A stretch of 64,000 nucleotides of DNA from Hymenobacter baengnokdamensis. Lineage in GTDB: Bacteria; Bacteroidota; Bacteroidia; Cytophagales; Hymenobacteraceae. Where the stretch lies: assembly GCF_008728635.1 (NCBI RefSeq), contig NZ_CP044285.1:2480001-2544000 (forward strand), written 5' to 3'. Numbering within the stretch: position 1 is the stretch's first letter; the number at the start of each line of letters is the position of its first letter. Below are positions 877 to 16,612 of this stretch, one piece after another. Made by a program: the position numbers and the translations under genes. The notes beneath the pieces were generated by a model, which saw only the letters and a program-made list of their open reading frames with translations, was not told the origin of the DNA and did no database searches.

Positions 877-3800
877 GTGATGGGAGAGGGCGTTTCTGGT
901 TCGATACGACCTTACCGACTAGATGTTGGCAGTGTAGCCTATCCATGGATAAAAACAGCAGACTGTGATAAACATCTCAAGTACATGACCGTGCCTTTCC
1001 AGGATTATAAGGTCGGTTTTAGATACGAAGGAGATCTTTCGAATACTTACGATTATCATCAGAATGGACAAGATATTGGCTTTCAGGTAAGTGCCGACAA
1101 ACAGTCCGTCACCATTACGGACGAGCGCCTATTTGCGGCGCATGCGCGCATCGAAGCGACCCGCAAAGGGCTAGTTAATCCTTCCGCTGGCACGCCGCAA
1201 CTTGTACAAGGAAAGCATGTCGTGTGGTATAGCAACGCTGAAATTGAGCAATTGAGTGCTAACCCTGGCACCAGTGACTTTCTCGATTATAATCAGCCAA
1301 CGGCCGGAATTGGTACGGCCAATACGTTCCGCCATCAATTGCCCCCTAGTGGAATTGGGGCCTTTGCCGTAACGGGAGAGGACGGGACGACCTATCATTA
1401 CTCGCTGCCAGTATATCAATTTAAAACATGTACTAAGTCCAGCGAAAACCAGCTATCTACCACTGTTGGCCATCTCGGCAGCTATATTAAGAATGAAGGC
1501 GCCCCGAGTCCGAATAACCAACACGGGGGTTATGCAACGACATGGTTGCTCACCGCCATTACCTCCTCAGACTATATTGACCGTAACAACTCAGGTACGG
1601 TTGATGCTAGCGACTGGGGGGGATGGGTGAGATTTGACTATGGGAAATTTTCCTCTCGCTATAAATGGCGTCAACCTTACGTGGGCACCAGCTACCCCGA
1701 TACCTCTGACCCAATTGTGTACGAAGGTTACACTCAGGGCTATCGTGAAAGCTATTACTTAGATAAAATCAGTACCCGCACTAACTCTGCTTTATTCGTA
1801 AAGAGCGTTCGGCAGGATGGTCGAGGTCATTTTGATCGTTACTCTGGAGTATTTGGCCCAGATGGCTCTTTTCACGCAAATGATTTAGGTATTGATGATC
1901 ATTTTCCAGCCTCTTCGTTGCGGCTCGATGAAATTATCCTGTTGGATAATAGTACGCTTGAAAAGGCCCAAAAAGTGGATGGGATTCGGCTGCAAAATGA
2001 CCCTGTTTCCACGCCCGCCTTAAGCAATAATACCGCGGGCAATTCCACAAATACTAATTGCAGTACTTGCGGCGATGACTTCGGACAGGTATTAGATGGC
2101 TTTGACTTGACGACTGACCCGCGTATCCAGCAATTTATAGAGGCTAATGCTATTAAGCGCATACGCTTCAACTACAGTTACGAACTATGCCGGGGAGTAC
2201 CGAACTCATTTACGTATCAAGATAACCAGCTAGCTAGTCTCCCGTCCATGGATGTGGCTCACTCTACTGTTAACAGGGGCGGAAAATTAACGCTGAAAAG
2301 CTTGTCGTTCTTTGGTCCAACAGTTAACCAAACGCCAACCAAAATTATTCCTGATTTCACTTTTAGCTACGAGGCTCTCGGTCAAACAGCTGCCAACACG
2401 AATCCCGCTTATTCACAAGAAAACTGGGATGCTTACGGGATGTATAATCCCAATGGCATGCATAATACCACGAGCCATAAGCCGGATCCTGCTATCTATG
2501 CCGCACCTTGGACGCTTACTAAAGTTACCTCTCCTTTAGGAGGCGCTACCACCATCTCGTACGAACGTGATCAATATGCTCATGTGTCAGAATATGGCAA
2601 TTCTGTAATCGGATTCACCAGTGATGGGGTCTCGACCTTAACATTAGCGCCAGAACAGGCCACTATTTTAAATGACGACCTTGGTAACGTGCTGAAGGCT
2701 GGAGATAAGGTAAGAGTAGTAGCAAATCTCGTTAGTACCTGTCCAAGAACTGGCTTCTCATCAGTGGGCGTGCAAATAGATGGTGTCCTTCAAATAGCTT
2801 CTGTTAATAGTAACAGCATTACGCTTACTTCCAGCTTCAATCTGCCCTGCGGTGCACAAAGTGTCATTACCAATGATAATTACTCCCCTTACGTGCAAGT
2901 ATATACGCCAAAAAATGTAATCGGAGGTGATATACGAGTAGCCAGCATAACTACTACCGAAGGAGACAGGGAATACAAAGTTGTTTACAAATATGAGGAC
3001 TCAAGGGGCACAAGCTACAACAGTACAGGTGTGCTTACCAAAGAACCCTCATTTCTCGGGAAGTTAAGTCGGCCTACAGATTATCAATTTGACTATCCTA
3101 CTACTCCAGTTCTATATAATAAAGTGACCGTTTTACGTGGGCCTTTCCATGAAAATAATGAAAATTTATACGATAGTAAGGAAGTATACGAGTTTTTTAC
3201 ACCCACCTCGGATATGGTAACCGAGGGCCTTAGTGGTACTAGTACAAAAGGCTTCTGGGATCCAATTAATAATAACTACACAGGTATTGCTGACTTATAT
3301 AATAATCAAGTTAGGATCAATACGGGCTTGATTGGCCGGCCTAAGTCGGTGCGAACATATAATAGGCAGGGTAGCTTAGAGCTGAGTAGTGACTTTATGT
3401 ATGCAAATCAAGTAGCTAATGCGGATAATGTGGCTAGGCAAGGAAATTTTTCAGAAGGTGTTCTTACTAATGAAGAATTAGGCATTCCGACTAACCAAGG
3501 CAGTACTTCCAGAGGTGCTAGGGGTGCTGGATCCGTCATGCCACCAGTGACTACTATAATTAATCACTACCAAGTAAACCGAACTACTAAAGAGTATGTG
3601 CCGGCAATTATGACAGGGTCACGCAGCACACGTAACGGCTTAAGTATTCTGACTAATAATGTGCTCTATGACTTTTATACCGGTCAGACATTAGAAACTG
3701 CTTTTACGAATTCATTGGGTAAAATACTACACACACGTACCCTACCTGCTTACACGTTACCGGGCAATGAGGCGATGGGGGCGAAGGGGGATAATCCGAC

Positions 3801-5286
3801 AAATAGGCATATGCTGGCCCAACAGGGAGCAGTCTATACCTTAGAGGAGGTACCGGGCGGCCCAGCCTATGACCCACTCAACCCCCTCAATCCGGCTACT
3901 TCGCATGTGCTCTCGGCCAGTGTGCAAACCTGGCAGAGCAACTGGACCAATTACCGCGAAGCGGATGCTACCGGCATGTACCAGGATATAGCTGGTCAAA
4001 CGCCGGTCTGGCGGCAGGCCGCTACCTATACCTGGCAATCTCCGGTACTGGATACCGACGGTTCTCTCAAGGATTTTACGCCCTTTAACTGGAATGGAAC
4101 GCCGGACAGCCGCTGGCTCAAAACGGGGGAGACCGTCCGCTATGATCATTACTCCCACGCGGTGGAAGCGCGAGATGTGAACGGCAGCTACGCCGTTCAG
4201 AAGACGGGCTATAATCAAACGCAAGTAGTAGTGTCAGCCAGTAACGCCCGGTACACCGAAGTCGCGTACGCGGGAGCAGAAGACCAGCTTACGGTAGCGG
4301 GGGCCACGCATTTTGGCGGGGAAGTGGTGGCGGCGGACGGAATAGCCGTGGCCGCGCCTACTGCCCCCACGCACACGGGATTTTATAGCCTGCAAGTCGC
4401 CGGTGGCAAGAAAGGCTTTGTCTACCAGGCCCAGGCGGGGCGGGATGTGACGCTGGGCAAAACCTACCGTGTCAGCGCCTGGGCTAATGCCAATGCAACG
4501 GCGGGCAAGATCTATGCTTCCCTTAACGGTCGCCGGTTGGCCGAAAGCTCGCGGAGTAGTAGCACGACGAAGAAGGCGGGTGCGTGGTACTTGCTCTCCC
4601 TGCTGGTAACGGTGCCCGCTTCGGCCTCCGGCCAAACCATTGAATTTGGCTGTGCCAACGATGGCGTAGCCGCGGCTAATTTTGATGACTTCCGGGTGGC
4701 TCCGCTCACGTCCACCGTCACGAGCCGGGTCTATGACCCGCGCTCCAATCAACTGCTTTTCAGCCTGGATAACGACAATCTATTCACCCAGTATGAGTAT
4801 ACGCCCACCGGGCGCTTACGGCAGGTCTCTCAAGAAGCACTGGATGGGACGGGTATTGCGGCCTCTACCAAGAAAGTAGTGAAGCAGTATGACTATAACT
4901 ACGGGCAACTTACCGCCCCTAATTGGCTCACGACTGACTACCGGTGTAAAGTAGATGGCGATGGAAACTATACTGGCGTTGAGGAGCGGCAGATAAGCGA
5001 TATAAATTCCTTGAGTAGTTCGTTTGGCACCCTAAAATGGGAGGACAACGGGGCATCATCCACCTGTGCTCGCCCTGCTTGTCCGTTTACCGACAGCAGC
5101 ATTCCGAATCGCCTGCGCAATAATCAGTGGGAGCAGGCGCAACCGAATGGCGCCCCAACGAAGCAGACGTATGGGCAATGTTGTCAGTGGACCTACCATT
5201 GGATTTACAGCAATGGGGATGATGCGGGGGATACCTATAGTGAGTGCACAACTGATAACTGTAACCAGATAGCTCCCCAAATTTAA
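877..5286 (+). CDS. Rhs/YD-type surface protein, 3' fragment, with CBM-like module
   Basis: This 1469-codon frame continues the preceding fragment. The same frame is already open from before 721 and reads sensibly through the gap (for example SPEFLATRDC and HDYFSVMGEG), so the ATG at 877 is probably not a real start. The protein is rich in Tyr, Asn, Asp and Gly. A carbohydrate-binding-like beta-sandwich module lies at about residues 1125-1285 (LGKTYRVSAW through NFDDFRV), followed by one YD-like unit (SRVYDPRSNQLLFSLDNDN, then QYEYTPTGRL). No Rhs core hallmark (PxxxxDPxG) is visible, and the Cys-containing tail ends abruptly. The first 2.8 kb is AT-rich and the last 1.5 kb GC-rich, suggesting mosaic origin. 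Family membership is confident; function is unknown. Confidence 0.75.
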   Translation: MMGEGVSGSIRPYRLDVGSVAYPWIKTADCDKHLKYMTVPFQDYKVGFRYEGDLSNTYDYHQNGQDIGFQVSADKQSVTITDERLFAAHARIEATRKGLVNPSAGTPQLVQGKHVVWYSNAEIEQLSANPGTSDFLDYNQPTAGIGTANTFRHQLPPSGIGAFAVTGEDGTTYHYSLPVYQFKTCTKSSENQLSTTVGHLGSYIKNEGAPSPNNQHGGYATTWLLTAITSSDYIDRNNSGTVDASDWGGWVRFDYGKFSSRYKWRQPYVGTSYPDTSDPIVYEGYTQGYRESYYLDKISTRTNSALFVKSVRQDGRGHFDRYSGVFGPDGSFHANDLGIDDHFPASSLRLDEIILLDNSTLEKAQKVDGIRLQNDPVSTPALSNNTAGNSTNTNCSTCGDDFGQVLDGFDLTTDPRIQQFIEANAIKRIRFNYSYELCRGVPNSFTYQDNQLASLPSMDVAHSTVNRGGKLTLKSLSFFGPTVNQTPTKIIPDFTFSYEALGQTAANTNPAYSQENWDAYGMYNPNGMHNTTSHKPDPAIYAAPWTLTKVTSPLGGATTISYERDQYAHVSEYGNSVIGFTSDGVSTLTLAPEQATILNDDLGNVLKAGDKVRVVANLVSTCPRTGFSSVGVQIDGVLQIASVNSNSITLTSSFNLPCGAQSVITNDNYSPYVQVYTPKNVIGGDIRVASITTTEGDREYKVVYKYEDSRGTSYNSTGVLTKEPSFLGKLSRPTDYQFDYPTTPVLYNKVTVLRGPFHENNENLYDSKEVYEFFTPTSDMVTEGLSGTSTKGFWDPINNNYTGIADLYNNQVRINTGLIGRPKSVRTYNRQGSLELSSDFMYANQVANADNVARQGNFSEGVLTNEELGIPTNQGSTSRGARGAGSVMPPVTTIINHYQVNRTTKEYVPAIMTGSRSTRNGLSILTNNVLYDFYTGQTLETAFTNSLGKILHTRTLPAYTLPGNEAMGAKGDNPTNRHMLAQQGAVYTLEEVPGGPAYDPLNPLNPATSHVLSASVQTWQSNWTNYREADATGMYQDIAGQTPVWRQAATYTWQSPVLDTDGSLKDFTPFNWNGTPDSRWLKTGETVRYDHYSHAVEARDVNGSYAVQKTGYNQTQVVVSASNARYTEVAYAGAEDQLTVAGATHFGGEVVAADGIAVAAPTAPTHTGFYSLQVAGGKKGFVYQAQAGRDVTLGKTYRVSAWANANATAGKIYASLNGRRLAESSRSSSTTKKAGAWYLLSLLVTVPASASGQTIEFGCANDGVAAANFDDFRVAPLTSTVTSRVYDPRSNQLLFSLDNDNLFTQYEYTPTGRLRQVSQEALDGTGIAASTKKVVKQYDYNYGQLTAPNWLTTDYRCKVDGDGNYTGVEERQISDINSLSSSFGTLKWEDNGASSTCARPACPFTDSSIPNRLRNNQWEQAQPNGAPTKQTYGQCCQWTYHWIYSNGDDAGDTYSECTTDNCNQIAPQI

Positions 5287-5413
5287 CCAGACCCGCTAGA
5301 ACGCCCTCCCTTGAGGCCACCCGTCCAACGCAGGTGAGGTAACGGCCCCCTATTGAAAGCCCACAAAAAGCGAGTATCCTTGCTATCAACCTAGTATTTC
5401 ATCACCGGTTAGC

Positions 5414-6625
5414 ATGAACCTATCCCCCGCCTTCGTGCCGACCCGCCATCCGATGCTCTCTTGGGTACGGGTCGCGGTAGCCGTTAGTCTCAGTAGTCTG
5501 TGTTTTCACCTCACTGCCCGCGCGCAAAGTTTTGCGGGGGCAGTCAGCTACGCGGCAGGCGGCAGTCCCCAGGGTATTGCGGCCGCCGATGTGAATGCGG
5601 ATGGCCTGGCCGATTTGCTGGTGGCTAATTCGAGCGCGAATACCCTGAGTGTGCTGCTTAACCAAGTCGCGCAGCCCGGTACGTTTGCCACTGCCCCGGC
5701 GAGCTTTTCTACTAAAGGGCTGTATCCGGTCGCCTTAGCAGTGGGGGACGTCAATGGCGATACCTACCCCGACGTCGTCCTGGTCAACGAAACCAGCAGT
5801 ACGGTCAGTGTGCTGCTGAACACGAACAGCCCGGCTTTATTTGCGCCGGCTAGCGTGTATGGGAGTGGCTCGCTGCTGCCGCGGGGGATAGCACTGGGGG
5901 ATGTCAATAAGGATGGGCTCCTGGATATTGTCCTGGCCGCGACGGTGGGCAATAAGATCGGAGTTTTGCTCAATTCCCCTACGGCCCCGGGTACTTTTCA
6001 GGCCGCCCAGCTGTATCCGAGCGGCGGAACCCGGCCCGAGGGCCTGGCAGTAAGTGATGTGGATGGGGACGGGCAACTTGACATTATTGTTGCGAACCAA
6101 ACCAGTAATTCGGTCGGCGTTCTGCTCAACTCCACGCAAAGCCCTGGGACCTTCGCTACGCCCGTATCCTACGCTACTGGCGGAACCTCGCCCCGCGCGC
6201 TCCTCTGCAGGGACGTCAACCTGGATGGCCTAAGTGACATTCTGGTGACCAATATGGCCAGTGGGACGGTGAGTGTCTTACTCAATTACCAAACGGCAGC
6301 CGGCACTTTTTTGCCGGCTACTGCCTACGCTACCGCGGCATCTGGTCCGGTAGGGCTCGGCGCAGGCGATATCACGGGCGACGGCCTACCCGATGTGATA
6401 GTTGCAGATTACGAGGCAAAAACCGGCACTACCATTTCCATATTGAGTAATTCTACGGCTAAGGCTGCCGTGTTTAGTTCTGCTGCTCGACTCTACCGGA
6501 GCGGGGGGACTGGCCCCCACGACGTAACGGTGGGCGATTTCAATGGAGACGGTCGGCTGGATATCGCCACGAGCAACTTTGGCAGTAATGTGATAGGCGT
6601 CTTGTTGAATACGGGTAAATTCTAG
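5414..6625 (+). CDS. Secreted VCBS/FG-GAP repeat protein
   Basis: The 403-residue product begins with a signal peptide: a hydrophobic stretch at about residues 17-36 ending ARAQ. The rest consists of about seven repeats of 55-60 residues. Each carries a calcium-binding-like D-x-N-x-D-G-x-x-D motif (DVNADGLADLL, DVNGDTYPDVV, DVNKDGLLDIV, DVDGDGQLDII, DFNGDGRLDIA) followed by a V-x-V-L-L-N strand. This is the FG-GAP/VCBS beta-propeller pattern, so an exported, probably calcium-stabilised surface or adhesion protein is likely. No obvious type IX C-terminal domain is present, as the protein ends on a propeller repeat. It lies 127 bp after the Rhs-like gene in the same direction and could be co-transcribed with it. 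Confidence 0.85.
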   Translation: MNLSPAFVPTRHPMLSWVRVAVAVSLSSLCFHLTARAQSFAGAVSYAAGGSPQGIAAADVNADGLADLLVANSSANTLSVLLNQVAQPGTFATAPASFSTKGLYPVALAVGDVNGDTYPDVVLVNETSSTVSVLLNTNSPALFAPASVYGSGSLLPRGIALGDVNKDGLLDIVLAATVGNKIGVLLNSPTAPGTFQAAQLYPSGGTRPEGLAVSDVDGDGQLDIIVANQTSNSVGVLLNSTQSPGTFATPVSYATGGTSPRALLCRDVNLDGLSDILVTNMASGTVSVLLNYQTAAGTFLPATAYATAASGPVGLGAGDITGDGLPDVIVADYEAKTGTTISILSNSTAKAAVFSSAARLYRSGGTGPHDVTVGDFNGDGRLDIATSNFGSNVIGVLLNTGKF

Positions 6626-6659
6626 CGTAGCTAGTCCACTCCAAGAGGAGCGGCCGGGT

Positions 6660-7179
6660 TGCGCCACTATACTAGGGGTTTTATCAAAGTTATCGACTAG
6701 CGTTAAGACCCGGATTATACGCCCGTCGAATAGCTTATCCGCTACAAAATCTATGCGCCACCTCTGAGGCGGCGGCGTCACCGCCATGCGCGCTAGGTGG
6801 TGACGCCGCCGCCCGATTACGCCGTGGCCGTTCACTGCGTAAGTTCAAGCCTTCCGAACAGGAAAGGCGATGTACCCGCTTGTGGTTATCAGGCCATCCC
6901 TCCCGGCGCAACAGCATGTGAAGCCGGCGCCAGCCGTAGCGGACTTGGCACCTGAGCCAACTCGCGTAAACGATGACGTAGCACGGTATCGTCCCGGCCA
7001 TGGGCTTTATAGGACCAACTCGAACGCTGTAAGCCGATGACCCGGCAAGCTCGTCGGGCCAAGATGTGATAGGCGTGGAGGAGGTGTTGGGCCGCGTGCC
7101 TAGCGGTCCGGGCCTTAAAACTTTTTTTGAGCACGTCCTGCCACATCTGCTTGTCGAGGCTAAGGTCGGCCACGAGCTA
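6660..7179 (-). pseudogene. IS3-family (IS407-like group) transposase remnant
   Basis: Reading leftwards from 7176, the pieces match the end of an IS3 OrfA (LVADLSLDKQMWQDVLKK), then OrfB: RRACRVIGLQRSSWSYK, a one-base frame change near 6950, RYGWRRLHMLLRREGW, and after another frame change WRIDFVADKLFDG with IRVLTLVDNF, which contains the first catalytic Asp. The second Asp and the Glu are missing. The frame has at least two shifts and its 5' end stops exactly where the IS630 element begins. The OrfA start is not found on the far side of that element, so the copy was already incomplete. It cannot be functional. Confidence 0.8.
6768..6813. repeat. 18-bp-arm inverted repeat inside the IS3 remnant
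   Basis: The arms at 6768-6785 and 6796-6813 are reverse complements with one mismatch, around a 10-base loop. They are almost pure GGC/GCC repeats with GTCACC at the inner end. There is no T run, so it is not a typical terminator. It sits at one of the frame breaks of the transposase remnant and may be a palindrome formed by slippage or a tiny insertion. Confidence 0.7.
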
Positions 7180-7180
7180 T

Positions 7181-8280
7181 TTAAACTCGTCGCGAAGTAA
7201 AAAGCGAAAGCCGTTGATTAAACTTGCGGCATGCAGGTTTCCCTCACCGACCCGGAGCGCCAACGGTTGCGTGCGTTGCAAAAGCAACGGCGCGATGACG
7301 AGGGCTACGTAAAAGTGACGGTGGTGCTGTTGCTGGACAAGGGGCGCTCGGCGGGAAGCATTGCCGACGATTTGGGGCTGGATGATGGCACGGTGTACCG
7401 CTACGCCGAGGCCTTTGCCCGGTTGGGCTTGGAGAAGTACCTGGCCCACGAGCAGCGCGGCTACTGGGGGCTGCTGACCAGCACCCAACTCGCCGGCTTG
7501 TGCCAGGAGCTGCGCCGGACCCTGTACACCGACTGCCGCCCGTTGCAGGCCTGGCTGACACAGGCCACCGGCGTGCGCTACTCGGTTTCGGGCCTGACGG
7601 ACCTGCTACACCGGTTGGGCTTTGTGTACAAGCTCACCACGCCCATGCCTTGCGAAGCGGACGCCGACGCGCAGGCCGCTTTTCTGGCCAACCGGTTGCA
7701 GCCCCTGCTGGAACGGGCTGCGGCCGGCGACGCCGTGGTGTATTTTGCCGACGCGGCCCACCCCACCCACAACACCCGCTGCACCCGGGCCTGGACCGAA
7801 AAAGGCGCACAGCGGCCCCTGCCTACGGTCAGCGGACGCGAACGGGTGAATCTGAACGCGGCCCTCAACGCGCACTGCCCTACGCAGGTGTACGTGCACG
7901 AAACGGCCTGCGTCAACGCCCAGAGCACAAAAGCCTTATACGAACAGCTGCTGGCCGCCCATCCCAGCCAACCGATTTACGTGGTCTGCGACAACGCCCG
8001 CTACTACAAAAACCAGGAACTGACCCAGTGGCTGGCCGATAAGCCCCTGGTGCAGGTCTTTCTGCCGCCCTATTCGCCCAACCTGAACCTGATTGAGCGC
8101 CTGTGGAAGTTCCTGCGCCAGAAAATCATCAACGCCACCTTTTACCGCACCAAGGGCCACTTCCGACAAGCCGTGCTCGGCTTCTTCTCCCGACTCAACG
8201 AGTTCGGCCAAGAACTCGCGTCCTTACTTACCCTCAACTTTCACCTCCTGGATTCGCAACCCACTTCGTGACGGGTATAA
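7181..8280 (+). mobile_element. IS630-family insertion sequence, complete
   Basis: Imperfect terminal inverted repeats of 28 bases lie at 7181-7208 and 8253-8280, sharing the blocks CGTC, CGAAGT and GCGAA at equal spacing. TA dinucleotides occur at both edges (7182-7183 and 8278-8279), the target duplication expected for this family. The single transposase gene fills the element and its stop lies inside the right repeat. The left edge abuts the IS3 remnant, so this element probably inserted into or beside it. The exact outermost base is uncertain by 2-4 bases because several TA steps overlap. Confidence 0.85.
7231..8271 (+). CDS. IS630-family transposase
   Basis: The 346-residue DDE transposase begins with a helix-turn-helix region (about residues 30-80: LDKGRSAGSIADDLGLDDG, then TVYRYAEAF). 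The RNase H-like catalytic domain follows, with YFADAAHP (Asp174), VVCDNARYYKN (Asp254) and PPYSPNLNLIERLWK (Glu289), the signature D...D...E spacing of IS630/Tc1-mariner relatives. The frame is intact over full length, so the element may be active. The ATG at 7231 lies about 50 bases inside the left terminal repeat, the normal position. Confidence 0.95.
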   Translation: MQVSLTDPERQRLRALQKQRRDDEGYVKVTVVLLLDKGRSAGSIADDLGLDDGTVYRYAEAFARLGLEKYLAHEQRGYWGLLTSTQLAGLCQELRRTLYTDCRPLQAWLTQATGVRYSVSGLTDLLHRLGFVYKLTTPMPCEADADAQAAFLANRLQPLLERAAAGDAVVYFADAAHPTHNTRCTRAWTEKGAQRPLPTVSGRERVNLNAALNAHCPTQVYVHETACVNAQSTKALYEQLLAAHPSQPIYVVCDNARYYKNQELTQWLADKPLVQVFLPPYSPNLNLIERLWKFLRQKIINATFYRTKGHFRQAVLGFFSRLNEFGQELASLLTLNFHLLDSQPTS

Positions 8281-8735: not shown

Positions 8736-9044
8736 ATGAAAGACAACCCTCAACCTATTAAACGCCGGCGTTATGACGCCGCCTTTCGAGCGGAGGCTCT
8801 GCGGCTAGCCGGTGAAAGCCGCTCGACCCAAGCCGCCGCGCGGGCCTTAAATATTAATGTCAAGCTACTCTACAAGTGGCAAAAGGAAGCTCTTACGCCG
8901 GTGGCCGCCGCACGGGGTGCGGAGTTGGACCCCGCCACAGCCGCTGAACTGCGCCAACTGCGGGCCACGAATCGACGCCAGGCCCAGGAGCTCGAGATTT
9001 TAAAAAAAGCCATTGCCATCTTCTCGGTGACCGACAACCAATGA
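8736..9044 (+). CDS. IS3-family OrfA (DNA-binding subunit)
   Basis: The 102-residue protein has the IS3 OrfA layout: a basic N terminus, a helix-turn-helix (YDAAFRAEALRLAGESRSTQ through NINVKLLYKWQKEA, about residues 13-55), and a leucine-zipper-like helix (LRQLRATNRRQAQELEILKK). OrfA alone usually binds the IS ends; fused to OrfB by frameshifting it forms the active transposase. The gene overlaps orfB by 4 bases (ATGA), with orfB in the -1 frame. Confidence 0.93.
   Translation: MKDNPQPIKRRRYDAAFRAEALRLAGESRSTQAAARALNINVKLLYKWQKEALTPVAAARGAELDPATAAELRQLRATNRRQAQELEILKKAIAIFSVTDNQ
9002..9008 (+). other. Probable -1 programmed frameshift site (A AAA AAA)
   Basis: Seven consecutive A lie in the phase TTA AAA AAA GCC near the end of orfA. 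Slipping back one base enters the orfB frame, which is open from here through the orfB ATG at 9041, giving a fused OrfAB. This is the standard arrangement of IS3 elements. The fusion is inferred from frame and motif only. Confidence 0.7.
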
Positions 9045-9940
9045 GCCGCTATCGTTTTATCGAAGCGCAGCGGAATCAGTACCCCGTGCGCTTGCTTTGC
9101 CAGGTAGTCGCGGTGCCAGTCAGCGGCTACTATGCGTGGCAACAAGCTCAAGAACAAGTAAATGATAAACAGGCGCCTGCTTGGGAAGAGGCGCTGGTCA
9201 AGGTTTTCGGCCGGCACAAACGCCGCTACGGCACGCGTCGGCCGCAGGTCGCCTTGCGCCGCAAGGGCTACCGCGTTGGTCGCCAGCGCCTACGGGCAGC
9301 CATGCACCGTCGAGGCCTACACGCGCTGCAACCTAAATCATTTACCCCACGCACGACTGACTCGACGCACGGGCTACGTTGCGACCCCAACCGGCTGCTC
9401 AACCAGCCCAAACCTACTCAAGCTAATCAGGTATGGGTCAGTGATATCACTTATCTGCCGCTGGCCAATGGAGACTGGGCTTATCTGTGCGCCTTTCAGG
9501 ACATGGTCAGCAAGCAGGTGCTGGGCTGGCACGTCATGGCAACCATGCCCGAGGAGCTGCTTACCACGGCCTTGCAGCGCGCTTTTTGGGCCCAGCCGCC
9601 CACACCCGGCCTACTCGTGCACTCCGACCGCGGCGGGCAGTACTGCGGCAAGGTGTATCGCAAACTACTGCACGACCACGAGGCCCTGCGCTCGCAGAGC
9701 CGCCGCGGCGACTGCTACGGTAATGCCCAAGCTGAAAGCCTCTGGTCGCGCCTAAAAACGGAGGTGCTCGAACTGCGCGAACGGCCCGTTTTTGCCGACC
9801 TAGCCGACGCGCAGACCAGCGTCGCCGACTATTTTGATTATTATAATCACGAGCGCCTGCACTCCAGTATCGACTACCAGACTCCGTATCATACTCACCA
9901 ACAGATTCTTCAACTTAACGCCCTAAACTGTCCAGCGTAA
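9041..9940 (+). CDS. IS3-family OrfB (DDE transposase)
   Basis: The 299-residue catalytic subunit shows RRYGTRRPQVALRRKGYRVG in the N-terminal HTH_21-like region and an rve integrase core with Asp135 (VWVSDITYLP), Asp196 (LLVHSDRGGQY) and Glu232 (NAQAESLWSRLKTE), then YYNHERLHSSIDYQTP. All three catalytic residues are present and the frame is unbroken. The stop codon lies within the right terminal repeat. Translation is probably mainly by frameshift from orfA. Confidence 0.95.
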   Translation: MSRYRFIEAQRNQYPVRLLCQVVAVPVSGYYAWQQAQEQVNDKQAPAWEEALVKVFGRHKRRYGTRRPQVALRRKGYRVGRQRLRAAMHRRGLHALQPKSFTPRTTDSTHGLRCDPNRLLNQPKPTQANQVWVSDITYLPLANGDWAYLCAFQDMVSKQVLGWHVMATMPEELLTTALQRAFWAQPPTPGLLVHSDRGGQYCGKVYRKLLHDHEALRSQSRRGDCYGNAQAESLWSRLKTEVLELRERPVFADLADAQTSVADYFDYYNHERLHSSIDYQTPYHTHQQILQLNALNCPA

Positions 9941-10021
9941 CTAGACCATCCCATGCAGGTACTCTGGGTGTAGTACTCCCCAAAAGTTGGACAGTTCAGG
10001 CGGGCTATCTTAGTCAAGTCC

Positions 10022-10128
10022 ATGAGTCCCAAACGCACCCGCCGTCGCTACACGGCCGAGTTTAAAGCTGAGGTGGCATTGGCCGCCCTCACCGAGCGCC
10101 AGCCCCTGGCCGAGTTGGCGGCCCACTA
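10022..10128 (+). pseudogene. IS3-family orfA remnant (5' end only)
   Basis: A start at 10022 encodes SPKRTRRRYTAEFKAEVALA, LTERQPLAELAAHY, the classic beginning of an IS3 OrfA. A terminal-repeat-like TTGGACAGTTC lies about 35 bases upstream. Similarity stops abruptly near 10128, where the right end of an oppositely oriented IS3 remnant begins, so only about 35 codons remain. Confidence 0.75.
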
Positions 10129-10139
10129 CCTGGGGTGGT

Positions 10140-10875
10140 CTAGCTGGAACGGACAGAGAGCTAAGGTAGGTGTTGGAGGAGGTCGGCTTCAAACTGGTGA
10201 GGCGAGCGGTAGCCGAGTGCCGAGTGGCGGCGGTCGAGGTTGAAGTACGTATCGAGATAGTAGGCCACTTCCAGCCGGGCCTCTTCCACGCTGGCGAACG
10301 CGCCGCTGTGGGGCAGCAGCTCGGTTTTGATGGTGCTCCAGCCGGCTTCGGCCTGTGCGTTATCCTAAGGGTTGCCCGGCCGGGCGTAGCTGGCCAGTGC
10401 GCCCGCCTGCTGCGCTGGCGGCAGGCCAAGCTGGTGTACTGGCTGCCCCGGTCCGCGTGGATGAGCAGCCCTGGCGCGGGCTGACGCAGCGTCAGGGCTT
10501 GTTCCAAGGCAATGAGCACCAATTCGGTGGGCATCTGTGCAGCCAGGTGCCAGCCTACCACCCGGCGCGAACAGGTATCGCGCCACGTGGCCAGGTAGCA
10601 CCAGCGGCCGCCTACCAGCGGCAGGTAAGTAAGTAATGTCGCCCACCCATACCTGGTTGGGGTGCGTGGGCGCGGGCTGGCCCAGCAGTCGGTTCTCGGC
10701 CACCACTGTGGCCGACCCGTCCGCCGTGGTGCGCGGACGCTGGGGGCGGGTGCTCAGGGCACGTTGCCCGCTGGCGCGGAGCCAGCTCCGCAGCGCGCAA
10801 CGGCCCACTAGGTGGCCCTCGGCGTGCAGCTCGGCCCGCAGGCGGGTGCCGTAGCGGCCCGCATGGCGCGTTGCA
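10140..10875 (-). pseudogene. IS3-family orfB remnant with several frameshifts
   Basis: Reading leftwards from about 10875: RYGTRLRAELHAEGHLVGRC, NRLLGQPAPTHPNQVWVGDI (first catalytic Asp), then after a shift VVGWHLAAQMPTELVLIALE and LLIHADRGSQYTS (second Asp), and after another shift YYLDTYFNLDRRHSALGYRS, ending PHQFEADLLQHLP at the stop codon 10161-10163. The N-terminal quarter of OrfB and all of OrfA are missing on the right, where the sequence joins a truncated cellular gene. At least two frame changes make it non-functional. The end near 10140-10157 carries a TGGAACGGACAG terminal-repeat-like sequence. Confidence 0.85.
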
Positions 10876-11043
10876 ATGGTAGCGAACGAGAGTCTTAACT
10901 AGATTGGCCAACTGGATGGTGGGCATCGTGCGCAGGCGCTGCCGCATGCATAGCGAACACCTGCCTGCCTGGCCCTGCGTGTTGATGACCGCGCTGAGGT
11001 TTGGGTCTTTCGCGCAGTCGCTGCAAAGAAGGTGCTTGCTCAC
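10876..11043 (-). pseudogene. Double-CxxC zinc-ribbon protein, 3'-truncated by IS3 remnant
   Basis: The start codon at 11043 overlaps the stop of the channel gene by four bases, so this was the next gene of the SIR2-RES-channel operon. The surviving 56 residues hold two CxxC pairs (Cys7/Cys10 and Cys29/Cys32) and a hydrophobic helix (TIQLANLVKTLVRYH). The layout resembles the small N-terminal zinc-binding domain often fused in front of RES domains (HEPN/RES N-terminal domain 1 type), here as a separate gene. At about 10875 the frame runs into the IS3 orfB remnant, giving an unrelated tail to 10612. Family assignment is moderate; truncation is clear. Confidence 0.6.
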
Positions 11044-11858
11044 TTGTTATCCGTTATGGTCACTTTGATTTCGTACCTCTTCTTCCTACGTTGGGGCATC
11101 CAGTGCTTAGTTCTTTTTTTCGGATTAGTAATATGATAGTTGGTTTGCAGCTTAGAGGAAAAGAAGTTGATGAATAGTGCGACAAATACTAGGAACAATA
11201 CTATCTGCGAAACCACTAAAAACTGCCCAAACCCGGTGCACGGATAGATGTCTCCATAGCCCACCGTTGCCGACGTGACGAAGCTAAAATAGATTGCCTT
11301 TATTGTCGAATCCAAAGGTTCTTTTAAGAAGTCGGGGTTCGCGTGACTGGAGTAGGAGTAGATTACGGCATAATCTAGCGACACCTGCACGTAGTTTATC
11401 AGCAGCGTTGACAAGGAACGCCGGGAGGAGATTGGCTCGGAAAACTCGTCAGACAGGAAGATGAGTGAAGCCAAATAAATGACCGTTTCTAGCGTCATAT
11501 AAGCAGAAATTACTGCAACGCATCCGTAGCGAGTTAGGCCAAGTAGTAAAAAGGCAAGGGGCAGAAGCAGTTTGAGGACGACGTACACCTCCACCCAAAG
11601 TTTTCGCGCCAGTAGCCCACACAGCCCGCTAAAGTGCCTGACGTACAAGCCAATCGTAGCGTACTGTAGCCAAATGAGTTTGAGGCGAATGAGTCGCTCG
11701 ATGCCCGCATCATCGTGGCGCGTGTTGCGCCACACGCGCAACACGTTGAGCCATTGGTTTTCCCAGGCCGTTCTTTTCAGTTTTCGGGTAGGCCGGGCGT
11801 GCTCCTGGCCTTTGAATAGAGTTGACCAGAAGCCCTTTGTGTTGTCGTACCTCATCAA
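11040..11858 (-). CDS. Two-pore-helix type potassium channel protein (TVGYGD filter)
   Basis: The 272-residue membrane protein has a soluble N terminus of about 60 residues, hydrophobic segments near 62-72, 88-107 and 112-135, and a terminal pore module: helix AIYFSFVTSATVGYGDIYP with the potassium selectivity filter TVGYGD at 198-203, then a last membrane helix (about 213-233) and a basic tail. This is the Ion_trans_2 (KcsA-like) architecture. The gene starts 9 bases after the RES gene and overlaps the next gene by 4 bases, so it is translationally linked to both. In this company a membrane-depolarising effector or a sensor is a reasonable inference; housekeeping potassium transport is the alternative. 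Confidence 0.85.
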   Translation of the reverse strand: MMRYDNTKGFWSTLFKGQEHARPTRKLKRTAWENQWLNVLRVWRNTRHDDAGIERLIRLKLIWLQYATIGLYVRHFSGLCGLLARKLWVEVYVVLKLLLPLAFLLLGLTRYGCVAVISAYMTLETVIYLASLIFLSDEFSEPISSRRSLSTLLINYVQVSLDYAVIYSYSSHANPDFLKEPLDSTIKAIYFSFVTSATVGYGDIYPCTGFGQFLVVSQIVLFLVFVALFINFFSSKLQTNYHITNPKKRTKHWMPQRRKKRYEIKVTITDNK

Positions 11859-11867
11859 TCAGCTTCG

Positions 11868-13043
11868 TTACGGTGTGAGCAATTTTGGATTTCTCTTCCT
11901 TAACGTGCGTTCAATGAAGCCAAATCCCGTCATCAAGTAATCTCTAGGGTCATCCACCACCAGGGCAAGTGTTTGCGGATTGCTGTCCATTTCGTTGCAT
12001 TCGTCCAGCGTGAATGGTCGCACATTACCGTAAGAAGCCATCGACTCTACGTCAATCGAGGTTGGTTCCGTAAGAGCGAAAGCCGCAGCCAAGTCGCTAC
12101 AGTGTCCACTACCCTGGATATCCTTAACTGGGAAGACGTAATTGTAAAGAAGTACGCCTCTTGCGATGCCGTAATCCGCTTTGGTAGACGGGTACATGAT
12201 ACCCGACATCGTCTCCTTCTCGCTCGTCACGTACTGCAAGAGCAACTGCGGAATGACGTATTCCGGTTTGAACGTGTCCGTAGTTGACTTGGTCTTGATG
12301 CAACAAGTGATGGATAGTGGGAACAGCGCGAGGTACCTAAGCAAATAGGTGTAACGGTTGTGGAGGTTGGGTACCACGGCACGCAGTTGAGGCAGGTAGT
12401 CAGTCAACCGCTGGAGCTTGACGACCTTCAGGTCTCTGACGTTCTCGAACCTACTGAAGTTCAAAGAGTGTAGGCGTGGCTTGTTAAGCTCTTCCCAGCA
12501 GACGTAGGTAGAATCGCCAAGGTAGAGGGCAGGTAGGCCGGGAATGCTGTAGCGGTTAGTGCCTACCAAACCACGGCTTTCAAAAGGATGATGAAATAAG
12601 TCGCGCTTCGTGAACCTCTTGGTTCCTTCGGGCCTGGCGCGGTAGAAGGAGTGGTGCGCCCTTATCGTCTCGATTGATGTCAGGTTGTTGAAATCAACGA
12701 AGTTCAGTGCCGCTCTGAACGCTTCGTCAGCTTGGAGCAGTCTTCCCCGGTAGTAACACTCGACGGCTTCGATGATTCCTTCGGTAAGACGCTGAATTTT
12801 ATCCGTGAGCGGGCTTTGCTCGTCACCCTCGTATAAGGCCACATCATCGGTGTGGGGCTTGACGTACGTTAGGTGGTAGTTAAGGTAATTGTCGAGCTCA
12901 GCTTTAAGGTGTGCTCGAAAATCCCCACTAGCATCGGATTGTGCTGGACGCGGAAGCTCGAACTGCGCCGGGTGTAACTGGTTGGCGACGCGCTCGAAGT
13001 CACCATCATCAGGTGCTTTACGCTGGCGAGCGGGTAGTGGCAT
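11868..13043 (-). CDS. RES-domain protein (putative NAD+-consuming enzyme)
   Basis: The 391-residue protein has an N-terminal helical region (about 1-125) and a C-terminal RES-type fold: SFYRARPEG (Arg135, Arg137), LFHHPFESRGLVGTNRYSIP, LPALYLGDSTYVCWEELNKP (Glu184/185), then EYVIPQLLLQYV and GIMYPSTK (Ser286), the last block typical of the family. RES toxins such as MbcT degrade NAD+ by phosphorolysis, and ParT-type relatives modify proteins with ADP-ribose. No Xre-type antitoxin lies next to it, unlike Xre-RES toxin-antitoxin pairs. The length and N-terminal helical region match the stand-alone RES proteins that carry HEPN/RES N-terminal domains. It lies in a leftward operon after the SIR2-like gene (126-base gap) and just before the channel gene. 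Confidence 0.72.
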   Translation of the reverse strand: MPLPARQRKAPDDGDFERVANQLHPAQFELPRPAQSDASGDFRAHLKAELDNYLNYHLTYVKPHTDDVALYEGDEQSPLTDKIQRLTEGIIEAVECYYRGRLLQADEAFRAALNFVDFNNLTSIETIRAHHSFYRARPEGTKRFTKRDLFHHPFESRGLVGTNRYSIPGLPALYLGDSTYVCWEELNKPRLHSLNFSRFENVRDLKVVKLQRLTDYLPQLRAVVPNLHNRYTYLLRYLALFPLSITCCIKTKSTTDTFKPEYVIPQLLLQYVTSEKETMSGIMYPSTKADYGIARGVLLYNYVFPVKDIQGSGHCSDLAAAFALTEPTSIDVESMASYGNVRPFTLDECNEMDSNPQTLALVVDDPRDYLMTGFGFIERTLRKRNPKLLTP

Positions 13044-13169
13044 GCTGGTAAATGTAACGGTATCTTAAAGTATATTTGGGTTAAATGGACAAATGTGTTG
13101 GCCCTACCCGGTCTCGCACTAGCGTGGAAACACCTGATTTTAACGCCACCGTATTTCTACGGAGTATTG

Positions 13170-14240
13170 TCATTCTCGCTCCTCGAATGCTTTTTCTGCT
13201 GCTTTTAGCGGGCCGAGCCAATCCCACAACTCCTGAAGCGTAGTGAAGTCGCGCGGTATTGGGTTGCCATCTTGGAACGCCTCGTCTATGGTCCTTGGCA
13301 TAGTCATATGCACGTAACTTTCATACGTGCGACGCGGATGCCGCGCTAAGCTAGAATCAAAGTAGTTGGTATGGTAGTCGTAGTGGTGGGAGTGAATGAA
13401 CCCATCCCACGACGCTTTTACTTCCTGTTCGGGGCGAACATCAATTAACTCAAACTGCTCCATGTTCCGGAGTTCTGCCCCTCCCCAGGCACTTTTCAAC
13501 AGGTCTATTGCTTCGACATCGGTTTTCGGTGCGCTGTAGCCAAAAATAGTCACCCGCGCTGCCCTTTCTAGGCGCTCCTGTAATATGTGCCACTGCGAGG
13601 CGATGAACTCGTCGGAATTATAGTCTTTGTGGGTTACAGGGTATAAAAGTTGCGTCGGCTCGAAGAAACCACTTCCATCCGCACGCATGGAATAACCTAC
13701 TGGTCCGGCTCTTTGGTCCTCTCGGCTGTATCCAAGGCGCACGTTGCCATGCAGGAATAGTACGTTGGGTGGCGACTCGTGCCATTGGGTACATTCTGAA
13801 GAGCGTTTACCCCCGGTAAAGAACTCAGTGTTTCGGTTCCAAGCCTCGTAGAGGAACGGGTCCCAATTAAACGTGGCGATAACATCCTCCGTTCGCAGTG
13901 AGCAAACCAGGTAATCATAAATGGTTGGCTCCGGAGGCAACGTCATTTTTGAAAAATACTGATAAATCCGATGATTGATGACCTCAAGCAGCGGGCTTTT
14001 GGGCATTTCATCGTACAGGGTACTGTACAGCTTTTCGAAGTTAGGGTCAACGATGTGAGGCGGTAGCTTGGCGATTATGTCCTGTAGGCCCACTACGTCT
14101 GCAATGCTGTACATTGAAGGTAGACGCTTCCCACCCGGCTCCGGATTCCGAATAGTTGCGGCAATGCTAGCCCCAGCCCCAAGCAGCACAACATGAGGCT
14201 TGTTGTTGTAAACACGGTCAATCTCGTCTTGGCGGGTCAT
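13170..14240 (-). CDS. SIR2-like domain protein (putative NADase)
   Basis: The 356-residue protein carries all SIR2-type motifs: VVLLGAGAS (21-25) for NAD binding, TFNWDPF (Asn125, Asp127), LFLHGNV (catalytic-type His164) and VTIFGYSAPKTDVEA (233-241). The spacing is that of the SIR2/SIR2_2 families found as NAD+-depleting effectors in anti-phage systems (Thoeris ThsA, DSR, SIR2-HerA, SIR2-Argonaute partners). There is no zinc-binding deacetylase module, so histone-type sirtuin activity is unlikely. It is the first gene of the leftward cluster and is more AT-rich than the core genome to the right. NADase activity and defence role are inferred from family and context. Confidence 0.82.
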   Translation of the reverse strand: MTRQDEIDRVYNNKPHVVLLGAGASIAATIRNPEPGGKRLPSMYSIADVVGLQDIIAKLPPHIVDPNFEKLYSTLYDEMPKSPLLEVINHRIYQYFSKMTLPPEPTIYDYLVCSLRTEDVIATFNWDPFLYEAWNRNTEFFTGGKRSSECTQWHESPPNVLFLHGNVRLGYSREDQRAGPVGYSMRADGSGFFEPTQLLYPVTHKDYNSDEFIASQWHILQERLERAARVTIFGYSAPKTDVEAIDLLKSAWGGAELRNMEQFELIDVRPEQEVKASWDGFIHSHHYDYHTNYFDSSLARHPRRTYESYVHMTMPRTIDEAFQDGNPIPRDFTTLQELWDWLGPLKAAEKAFEERE

Positions 14241-14423
14241 CAGTTTGACTGGTTAAACTGGCTGCGCAACAGTATAATAATTTCGTTCTTGGCCACCACA
14301 TCTGCTACGCTTGCCTCATCGTTATGTAGTACACGCTGAACTACTAGGTCAACTTATGGGCGGCAGACTTTCAGATTTTAATCTTCTGGGTATTGACCAC
14401 GTTGACTTGGTTGAACGAGCCGT

Positions 14424-15275: not shown

Positions 15276-15350
15276 TGGTAGTCCGTAGGGGAATCGAACC
15301 CCTGTTGGTAGAATGAAAATCTACTGTCCTAACCCCTAGACGAACGGACC
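15276..15350 (-). tRNA. tRNA-Glu (anticodon UUC)
   Basis: On the minus strand the sequence folds into a standard cloverleaf: acceptor GGTCCGT pairing with ACGGACT (a G-T wobble at the first pair), anticodon stem GTAGA/TCTAC with loop TTTTCAT giving anticodon TTC, and T arm with loop TTCGATT. The CCA end is encoded. It marks the border between the accessory region to the left and the core genome to the right. Confidence 0.96.
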
Positions 15351-15400: not shown

Positions 15401-15604
15401 TCTGCGGTATAAAAAAAGTGATTAGGGGCGAAGAGGGCGCTGATTTTCAGTTGGAAAAAAACAGCAGGAGTATCCATTGTGTTATTCCTGGCAATTCGCT
15501 TCAGGTTCGGAAACGGGCAAAGCCGCCGACAACCGTACCTTCGTAGCGCGTTATCACTTGGGCTGCGGCAGTGGCCCGCCACTCTTCCTATTTTTTCCAA
15601 TATT

Positions 15605-16612
15605 ATGGCAAAAATCAAAGTCGCCATTAACGGCTTCGGCCGGATTGGTCGCCTCACCTTCAAGTCGCTGCTCGGGCGCGACAACGTGGAGATTGTGGCC
15701 ATCAACGACCTGACTGACAACAAAACCCTGGCTCACCTGCTCAAGTACGACTCGGTGCATGGGCGCTTCGATGGCACGGTAGTCTACGACGAGCATAGCC
15801 TGACCGTGAATGGCCAGCATATTGCTGCCCTGGCTGAGCGCGACCCCAAGCTGCTTCCCTGGAAGGAAATGGGAGTTGATATTGTGCTCGAAAGCACGGG
15901 CCGCTTTGTGGATGAGGCCGGCGCAGGCCAGCACCTCACGGCCGGCGCGAAGAAAGTGGTTATTTCGGCACCTGCTACTGGCAACATTCCGACCGTGGTG
16001 CTGGGCGTAAACGAAGATACCCTGACTGGCAACGAGACTATTATCTCGAATGCCAGCTGCACCACCAACTGCCTGGCCCCGATGGCTAAGGTGCTCGACG
16101 ATGCCTTTGGCATCGAAAAGGGCTATATTACCACGGTGCACGCTTATACCTCAGACCAGAACCTGCAGGACGCGCCTCATAAAGACCTGCGCCGCGCCCG
16201 GGCCGCTGCCTACAGCATTATCCCTACCAGCACCGGCGCCGCCAAGGCCGTGGGGCTGGTGCTGCCCCAGCTGAAAGGCAAGCTCGATGGTATTGCCATG
16301 CGGGTGCCTATTCCAGATGGCTCTACCACCGACCTGACGGTGATTCTGAAAAAGGAGGCCTCGAAGGAGGAAATTAACGCTGCCATCAAAAAGGCGGCTG
16401 AAGGCCCTATGAAGGGCATTATTGAATACAGCACCGACCCCCTGGTGAGCATCGATATCGTAGGCAACAAGCACTCGTGCATCTTCGACTCGGAGCTGAC
16501 TTCCAACAATGGCACACTGGCGAAAGTAGTGGGCTGGTACGACAACGAAACCGGCTACTCGACCCGTACCGCCGACCTCATTCAGAAGCTGGGTGAGAAA
16601 ATGGTGGGCTAA
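15605..16612 (+). CDS. gap: Glyceraldehyde-3-phosphate dehydrogenase, type I
   Basis: This enzyme converts glyceraldehyde 3-phosphate to 1,3-bisphosphoglycerate with NAD+ in cytoplasmic glycolysis. The 335-residue protein has the Rossmann motif INGFGRIGR (9-17), the active-site SNASCTTNC with Cys152, His179 in [10 protein letters not shown], and the C-terminal WYDNETGYS. Asp35 in AINDLTD indicates NAD preference. An in-frame TTG at 15479 would add 42 unrelated residues, so the ATG at 15605 is preferred. It stands alone and ends in a strong terminator. Confidence 0.98.

Follow-up and report, generated by a model that had tools for sequence, protein, structure and literature searches.

A RES-domain gene beside a potassium-channel gene in a Hymenobacter defence island: a candidate two-gene unit

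The RES toxin NatT produces ADP-ribose-1''-phosphate (PMC11535050), and some RES proteins are ADP-ribosyltransferases (PMC12457610). A role for RES in conflict systems has already been proposed, since a 2022 survey lists it among the phosphate-using NAD+ enzymes and also among the domains deployed by prokaryotic immune systems; the survey also suggests that phages carry ADP-ribose-processing domains against small ADP-ribose signals (PMC9503650). According to the 2024 NatT paper, no RES toxin-antitoxin system had been implicated in immunity, and the NAD-targeting defences known so far relied on TIR and SIR2 alone (PMC11535050). In Thoeris systems with TM-macro effectors, the macro domains bind ADP-ribose and the effectors are thought to perturb membranes (PMC11204291). 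Here, we analysed a 64,000-nucleotide stretch (the window) of the 4.43-Mb single-contig genome of Hymenobacter baengnokdamensis (GCF_008728635.1, contig NZ_CP044285.1, positions 2,480,001 to 2,544,000), in which a RES-domain gene is packed against a potassium-channel gene. We consider a RES-channel pair the likeliest reading of this locus; our search of the open-licence literature found no such system.

Four minus-strand frames follow one another in the order SIR2-like, RES, K+ channel and a frame with CxxC pairs (from 11043; Table 1). The SIR2-like and RES genes are 126 bases apart, the RES and channel genes only 9, a packing that speaks for a pair, and the channel stop overlaps the GTG start of the fourth frame as GTGA. 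An initial annotation had proposed that all four genes form one defence system. It correctly gave the single direction and the 9-base gap, assigned the SIR2-like and RES genes to their enzyme classes, and recognised both the K+ pore and the defence-island setting, which shows in a tRNA-Glu border, low GC and insertion sequence (IS) remnants; the overlap it gave as ATGA was misread. The PADLOC 2023 models cover none of the four genes.

The 391-aa RES protein belongs to the RES fold class and has the Arg, Glu and Ser residues characteristic of it: R135, R137, R164, E185 and S286 are invariant in 43 of 43 aligned sequences, their match to the published triad being read from motifs and not from a structure alignment. 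The protein is a candidate NAD+ phosphorylase or hydrolase. A fold search placed diphtheria-toxin structures among the fold neighbours. When the RES and SIR2 profiles were run against the sequences of solved structures, nothing usable was returned. Among the best 120 of 477 matches, Hymenobacter comes first among the named sources; relatives occur in 7 of 395 phylum genomes and 7 of 150 family genomes (here and below, such counts include the window's genome).

The channel protein matches PF07885 above the cut-off (5.8e-13) and carries the TVGYGD pore. Its predicted structure (pLDDT 86) gave nothing at E<=0.001 in Foldseek, the pore aligning with KcsA at an E of ~0.04 (probability 1.00, target TM ~0.78). 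Furthermore, its N-terminal part is conserved, with W, R and K positions. Relatives number 107 at E<=1e-3, and the family is found in 9 of 395 phylum genomes at E<=1e-60 and in 30 of 395 at E<=1e-8. Across 134 genomes of the window's family, 4 have a match at E<=1e-9, three of them partial, and only the window holds a full-length copy; no match was found on plasmids.

Subsequently, we compared the contigs on which relatives of each gene lie, using protein lists that give the longest contig of each match; rows without a size were dropped, leaving 118 of 119 non-self RES, 106 of 106 channel and 118 of 119 SIR2 rows. The two best non-self RES matches (P0002 and P0003) agree in contig size and source with P0244 and P0242, which are among the three best non-self matches of the channel: P0002 and P0244 both come from a 3267-base 'ena' contig, and P0003 and P0242 both from a 24707-base 'lgn' contig. 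Four sizes agree between the RES and channel lists, three of them at least 3000 bases against 0.22 expected; at 3665 and 2338 bases the RES and channel sources differ, and these agreements may be chance. RES and SIR2 have two sizes in common and channel and SIR2 one, none of at least 3000 bases. Because contig size and source agree for these very close relatives of both genes, the RES-channel pair seems to recur, although this reading is indirect. Partners differ within the two foreign pairs: the RES protein of the window is closest to P0002 (67%), whereas identity between the two foreign pairs is 84% for the channels and only 49% for the RES proteins, as if the pairing were kept while alleles move.

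In addition to this pairing, members of the channel family have links to TIR and macro modules. The relative P0346, attributed by its source to Clostridium estertheticum, has an N-terminal macro domain fused to the channel (PF01661, precomputed); its channel part is 35% identical across 246 columns, and its macro part reaches a best NCBIfam score of 187 bits, just below the model cut-off of 200. In genome G290, a P-loop NTPase-TIR gene (TIR_2 32.2 bits, above the cut-off) lies upstream of the channel relative on the same strand, 111 bases apart; among 128 genomes of that order, only G290 has a channel match at E<=1e-20. In genome G391, a TIR gene scoring 141.7 bits with the ThsB model stands beside the relative. 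Counting the RES gene here and the macro fusion, the few non-core members of the family that were seen touch NAD+/ADP-ribose chemistry, but they are a small sample, and defence genes tend to cluster anyway. As a separate observation, locus L120 carries a DUF4062 gene (8817-9764; PF13271, 61.9 bits) with one gene between it and the channel, in 1 of 5 genomes of that genus; DUF4062 is described as a TIR-like NADase family (PMC13174449).

We tentatively favour a reading in which RES and channel together make up a two-gene unit that may at one time have been followed by a second RES-type protein. In response to a trigger, the RES enzyme would cleave NAD+ to nicotinamide and ADP-ribose-1''-phosphate or ADP-ribose; this product, or contact with the active enzyme, would open the K+ channel, and a cell that opens its own membrane in this way under attack would be stopped or killed as both its NAD+ and its K+ gradient are lost. 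The logic would be Thoeris-like, with RES standing in for TIR and the part of the effector taken by a true K+ pore. A narrower form strikes us as rather unlikely: RES-made ADP-ribose-1''-phosphate or ADP-ribose would be an alarm signal gating the channel, and this would be NAD+-derived immune signalling of a new kind, built on a channel family that has joined up with RES, with TIR and with macro modules independently. If true, signalling from a RES enzyme to an ion channel would assign RES a concrete role and point to a bacterial K+ channel as a candidate for gating by ADP-ribose, fitting the suggestion that phages counter small ADP-ribose signals (PMC9503650).

Several observations weigh against the signalling unit. 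The recurrence of the pair is taken from matching contig sizes and not from read sequence, and no recurring partner appeared across the 26 RES loci that we read. The channel itself lacks any known ligand domain, macro and SLOG included; its Pfam matches are only PF07885 and PF00520. The TIR gene in G391 is convergent to the channel relative, hence the two form no single operon. Moreover, six of the eight full-length channel relatives from the phylum survey (L118-L125) lie in ordinary chromosomal settings with no TIR or RES neighbour; five of these six belong to one genus and have, by reading, an upstream gene in common. Finally, tests of NatT against more than 50 phage isolates revealed no phage phenotype (PMC11535050).

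The missing ligand domain also fits an alternative, itself unlikely, in which the two genes work as a pair but no diffusible signal passes between them: the channel might sense membrane damage, the two might be parallel toxins, or one might restrain the other in the manner of a toxin-antitoxin pair. The same contig matches (P0002/P0244 and P0003/P0242) count for this reading as well, and known RES toxins have a controlling partner protein (PMC11535050, PMC12457610). No Xre/MbcA-type antitoxin gene adjoins the RES gene, however, its neighbours being the SIR2-like and channel genes, and the TIR neighbours and macro fusion suggest NAD+/ADP-ribose chemistry.

To determine whether the families meet elsewhere, we searched 149 loci by tblastn, taking the proteins of the window and five relatives as queries. 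Two of the RES, SIR2 and channel families occurred together only in the window's own loci, and for RES and channel this absence counts against the signalling unit as well. Loci with a single family numbered 41 for RES, 21 for SIR2 and 38 for channel with duplicates included, and about 31, 12 and 30 after their removal by hand; many of the channel loci hold ion channels too distant to belong to the family, and many of the 149 carry a flank of only ~1.5 kb, and therefore a more distant partner could be missed. A channel-pore fragment overlapping the RES start in Kordia (L027) was not counted: its similarity is weak (E 7e-4 in the smaller search, not reported at 1e-3 in the larger one), and it looks truncated.

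Scattered occurrence of this kind is what one would expect if RES and channel were unrelated cargo in an integration hotspot, a possibility that we regard as more unlikely still. The island setting with its IS remnants, the lack of a recurring partner among the RES loci and the ordinary settings of most channel relatives are all consistent with it, whereas the two same-source contig matches among the closest relatives of both genes and the 9-base spacing argue for a pair. The initial annotation had held that homologues rarely found as neighbours would mean a chance assembly. This description fits the SIR2-like gene, which lacks such co-occurrence and whose relatives have other defence neighbours, better than it fits RES and channel, because these seem to recur together.

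The four-gene system of SIR2, RES, channel and zinc-ribbon protein is not supported, because its families nowhere co-occur in the loci examined outside the window's genome; despite the same strand and order in the window and the presence of SIR2 and, in proposals, RES in conflict systems (PMC9503650), it is highly improbable given the 126-base gap after the SIR2-like gene, the other close partners of SIR2 relatives and a fourth frame that appears to be a broken gene.

Those partners are described as follows. At L073 and L074, gaps of 6 and 7 bases separate the SIR2 relative from a 1218-aa gene, which at L073 is a full-length Dsr1 (2398 bits) and at L074 was judged the same by reading. At L078, it belongs to a series of genes on one strand, spaced 1, 1, 2 and 30 bases apart, whose other members score as DruE, DpdE/DrmD, DrmMI and ThsB_TIR. 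On a Vibrio plasmid, a further relative lies in an island with genes annotated as SIR2, SLATT and McrBC and a HerA-type gene. Since the relatives adjoin Dsr1, a DrmD/DpdE-DrmMI operon and a plasmid defence island, we take the SIR2-like gene for a separate defence-island passenger that travels alone. Its relatives number 5635 at E<=1e-3, of which the best 120 were listed, and the gene occurs in 9 of 395 phylum and 2 of 150 family genomes. GAGAS, F-N-W-D, H164-G165 and FGY show little or no variation across 24 aligned relatives. The gene has no PADLOC or NCBIfam match and stays below the cut-off of SIR2 Pfam models (PF13289 12.6 bits, cut-off 24.5); none of the 24 aligned members matches a SIR2 model at E<=0.1, and profile comparison of the family with one annotated SIR2 protein aligned only 55 columns with a probability of 28%. 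At L081, in another genome of the window's family (G512, ~3668-7846), an integrase-like frame stands between a SIR2 relative and a nearby GAPDH-like gene (by reading), which suggests an integration hotspot shared with the window.

Judging from its sequence, the fourth frame is not a zinc-ribbon gene of its own, as first annotated, but the start of a second RES-type gene broken by an IS3 remnant. It carries the CxxC...CxxC zinc ribbon of the HEPN/RES N-terminus; being cut at about codon 56, it has no Pfam match and neither a HEPN nor a RES domain. A hidden Markov model (HMM) of 13 HEPN/RES N-termini gave it 39.1 bits, a score reached by none of 2000 fixed-cysteine shuffles (best 22.1), and in a background of 1133 frames high scores were confined to the two copies from the window itself, the next reaching 11.0. 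Its best foreign match in the 150 family genomes was weak (E 0.013), to a gene at L044 with a similar N-terminal layout, which was taken as RES by reading and through its near twin at L133. Because L044 had been found with the fourth frame itself, the HMM was rerun without L044 and then also without L133 (12 and 11 sequences), yielding 38.4 and 38.9 bits, while the best shuffles reached 21.9 and 20.5. Given these scores and a tblastn match to the Vibrio HEPN/RES gene of L138 (E 1.2e-5), the locus probably once held RES, channel and a second RES-type gene. Comparing the profile of the 391-aa RES protein with the HEPN/RES protein L132 returned a probability of 4% and therefore gives no sequence link between the two RES types. 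At L044 and L133, the HEPN/RES-type genes follow two further genes (one of 317 and 314 aa, with a shorter gene ahead of it) in a tight row, alike in the two loci by reading, which is possibly a separate unit.

The IS3 remnant is 78.6% identical, over the stretch aligned by blastn, to the best Hymenobacter plasmid record, where it is annotated as an IS3 family transposase, and a 68% copy lies elsewhere in the same genome. Of 15 plasmid records matching window positions 10000-14300, 14 are from Hymenobacter, all at this remnant. The island has a GC content of 0.51, compared with 0.57-0.63 across the adjoining 8 kb, and lies left of the tRNA-Glu and the GAPDH-like frame. A promoter and terminator scan found fewer sites than in shuffles and was uninformative, and no RES or channel relative was confirmed in viral contigs.

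Other RES relatives lie in varied surroundings. On plasmid NZ_CP115397.1 of Hymenobacter yonginensis (L126, 7989-17143), one lies ~3.4 kb from SspB and SspC (PADLOC 355 and 1340 bits), with an annotated site-specific integrase on the opposite side. In Hymenobacter daecheongensis (L031, 8936-9961), a DUF4917 (PF16263) gene in two frames, whose domain is presumably SIR2-like, stands directly upstream; as a single case, it was dropped as evidence of a partner. The gene upstream of the relative at L018 (8844-9785) weakly resembles a TIR effector model (26.9 bits) and, below the cut-off, a nucleoside deoxyribosyltransferase. Two further loci, L026 and L034, place two RES types side by side: convergent to the long RES relative there is a short RES gene of canonical appearance, whose partner is helix-turn-helix-like by reading.

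Table 1 Features of the locus, in window coordinates.
Feature	Position	Strand	Remark
IS3-family transposase remnant	10130..10871	-	ends the fourth frame
First 56 codons of a putative second RES-type protein (zinc ribbon, HEPN/RES type)	10876..11043	-	GTG start
Potassium-channel protein, 272 aa	11040..11858	-	two predicted helices, then KcsA-like pore (TVGYGD)
RES-domain protein, 391 aa	11868..13043	-	helical N-terminal part (~residues 12-121), then RES fold
SIR2-like protein, 356 aa	13170..14240	-	large uncharacterised family
tRNA-Glu	15276..15350	-	island border; ARAGORN
GAPDH-like frame	15479-16612		next to tRNA-Glu; named from reading its translation

Compared with known systems, the SIR2-like gene shares SIR2-type motifs and defence-island neighbours of its family with the defence sirtuins Dsr1, ThsA and SIR2-HerA, but belongs to a stand-alone family of ~350 aa. 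The fourth frame has the N-terminal zinc ribbon of HEPN/RES proteins (PF18870 and PF08808), whereas its 56 codons have lost the HEPN and RES parts. The RES protein resembles those of the RES-Xre modules MbcT-MbcA, NatT-NatR and ParT-ParS in its fold, its Arg, Glu and Ser residues and its probable NAD+ consumption; unlike them, it has a long helical N-terminal part and a channel gene in place of an Xre/MbcA-type antitoxin. Thoeris with a TM-macro effector (PMC11204291) differs in that RES here replaces TIR, no TIR or ThsB match being found in the four frames with Pfam or PADLOC, and in that the effector would be a K+-type channel lacking the macro or SLOG ligand domain of a Thoeris effector. 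Nevertheless, both place an NAD+-enzyme gene beside a membrane-effector gene, and the channel family found here includes a macro-fused member as well as two whose neighbours are TIR genes, one of these genes being ThsB-like.

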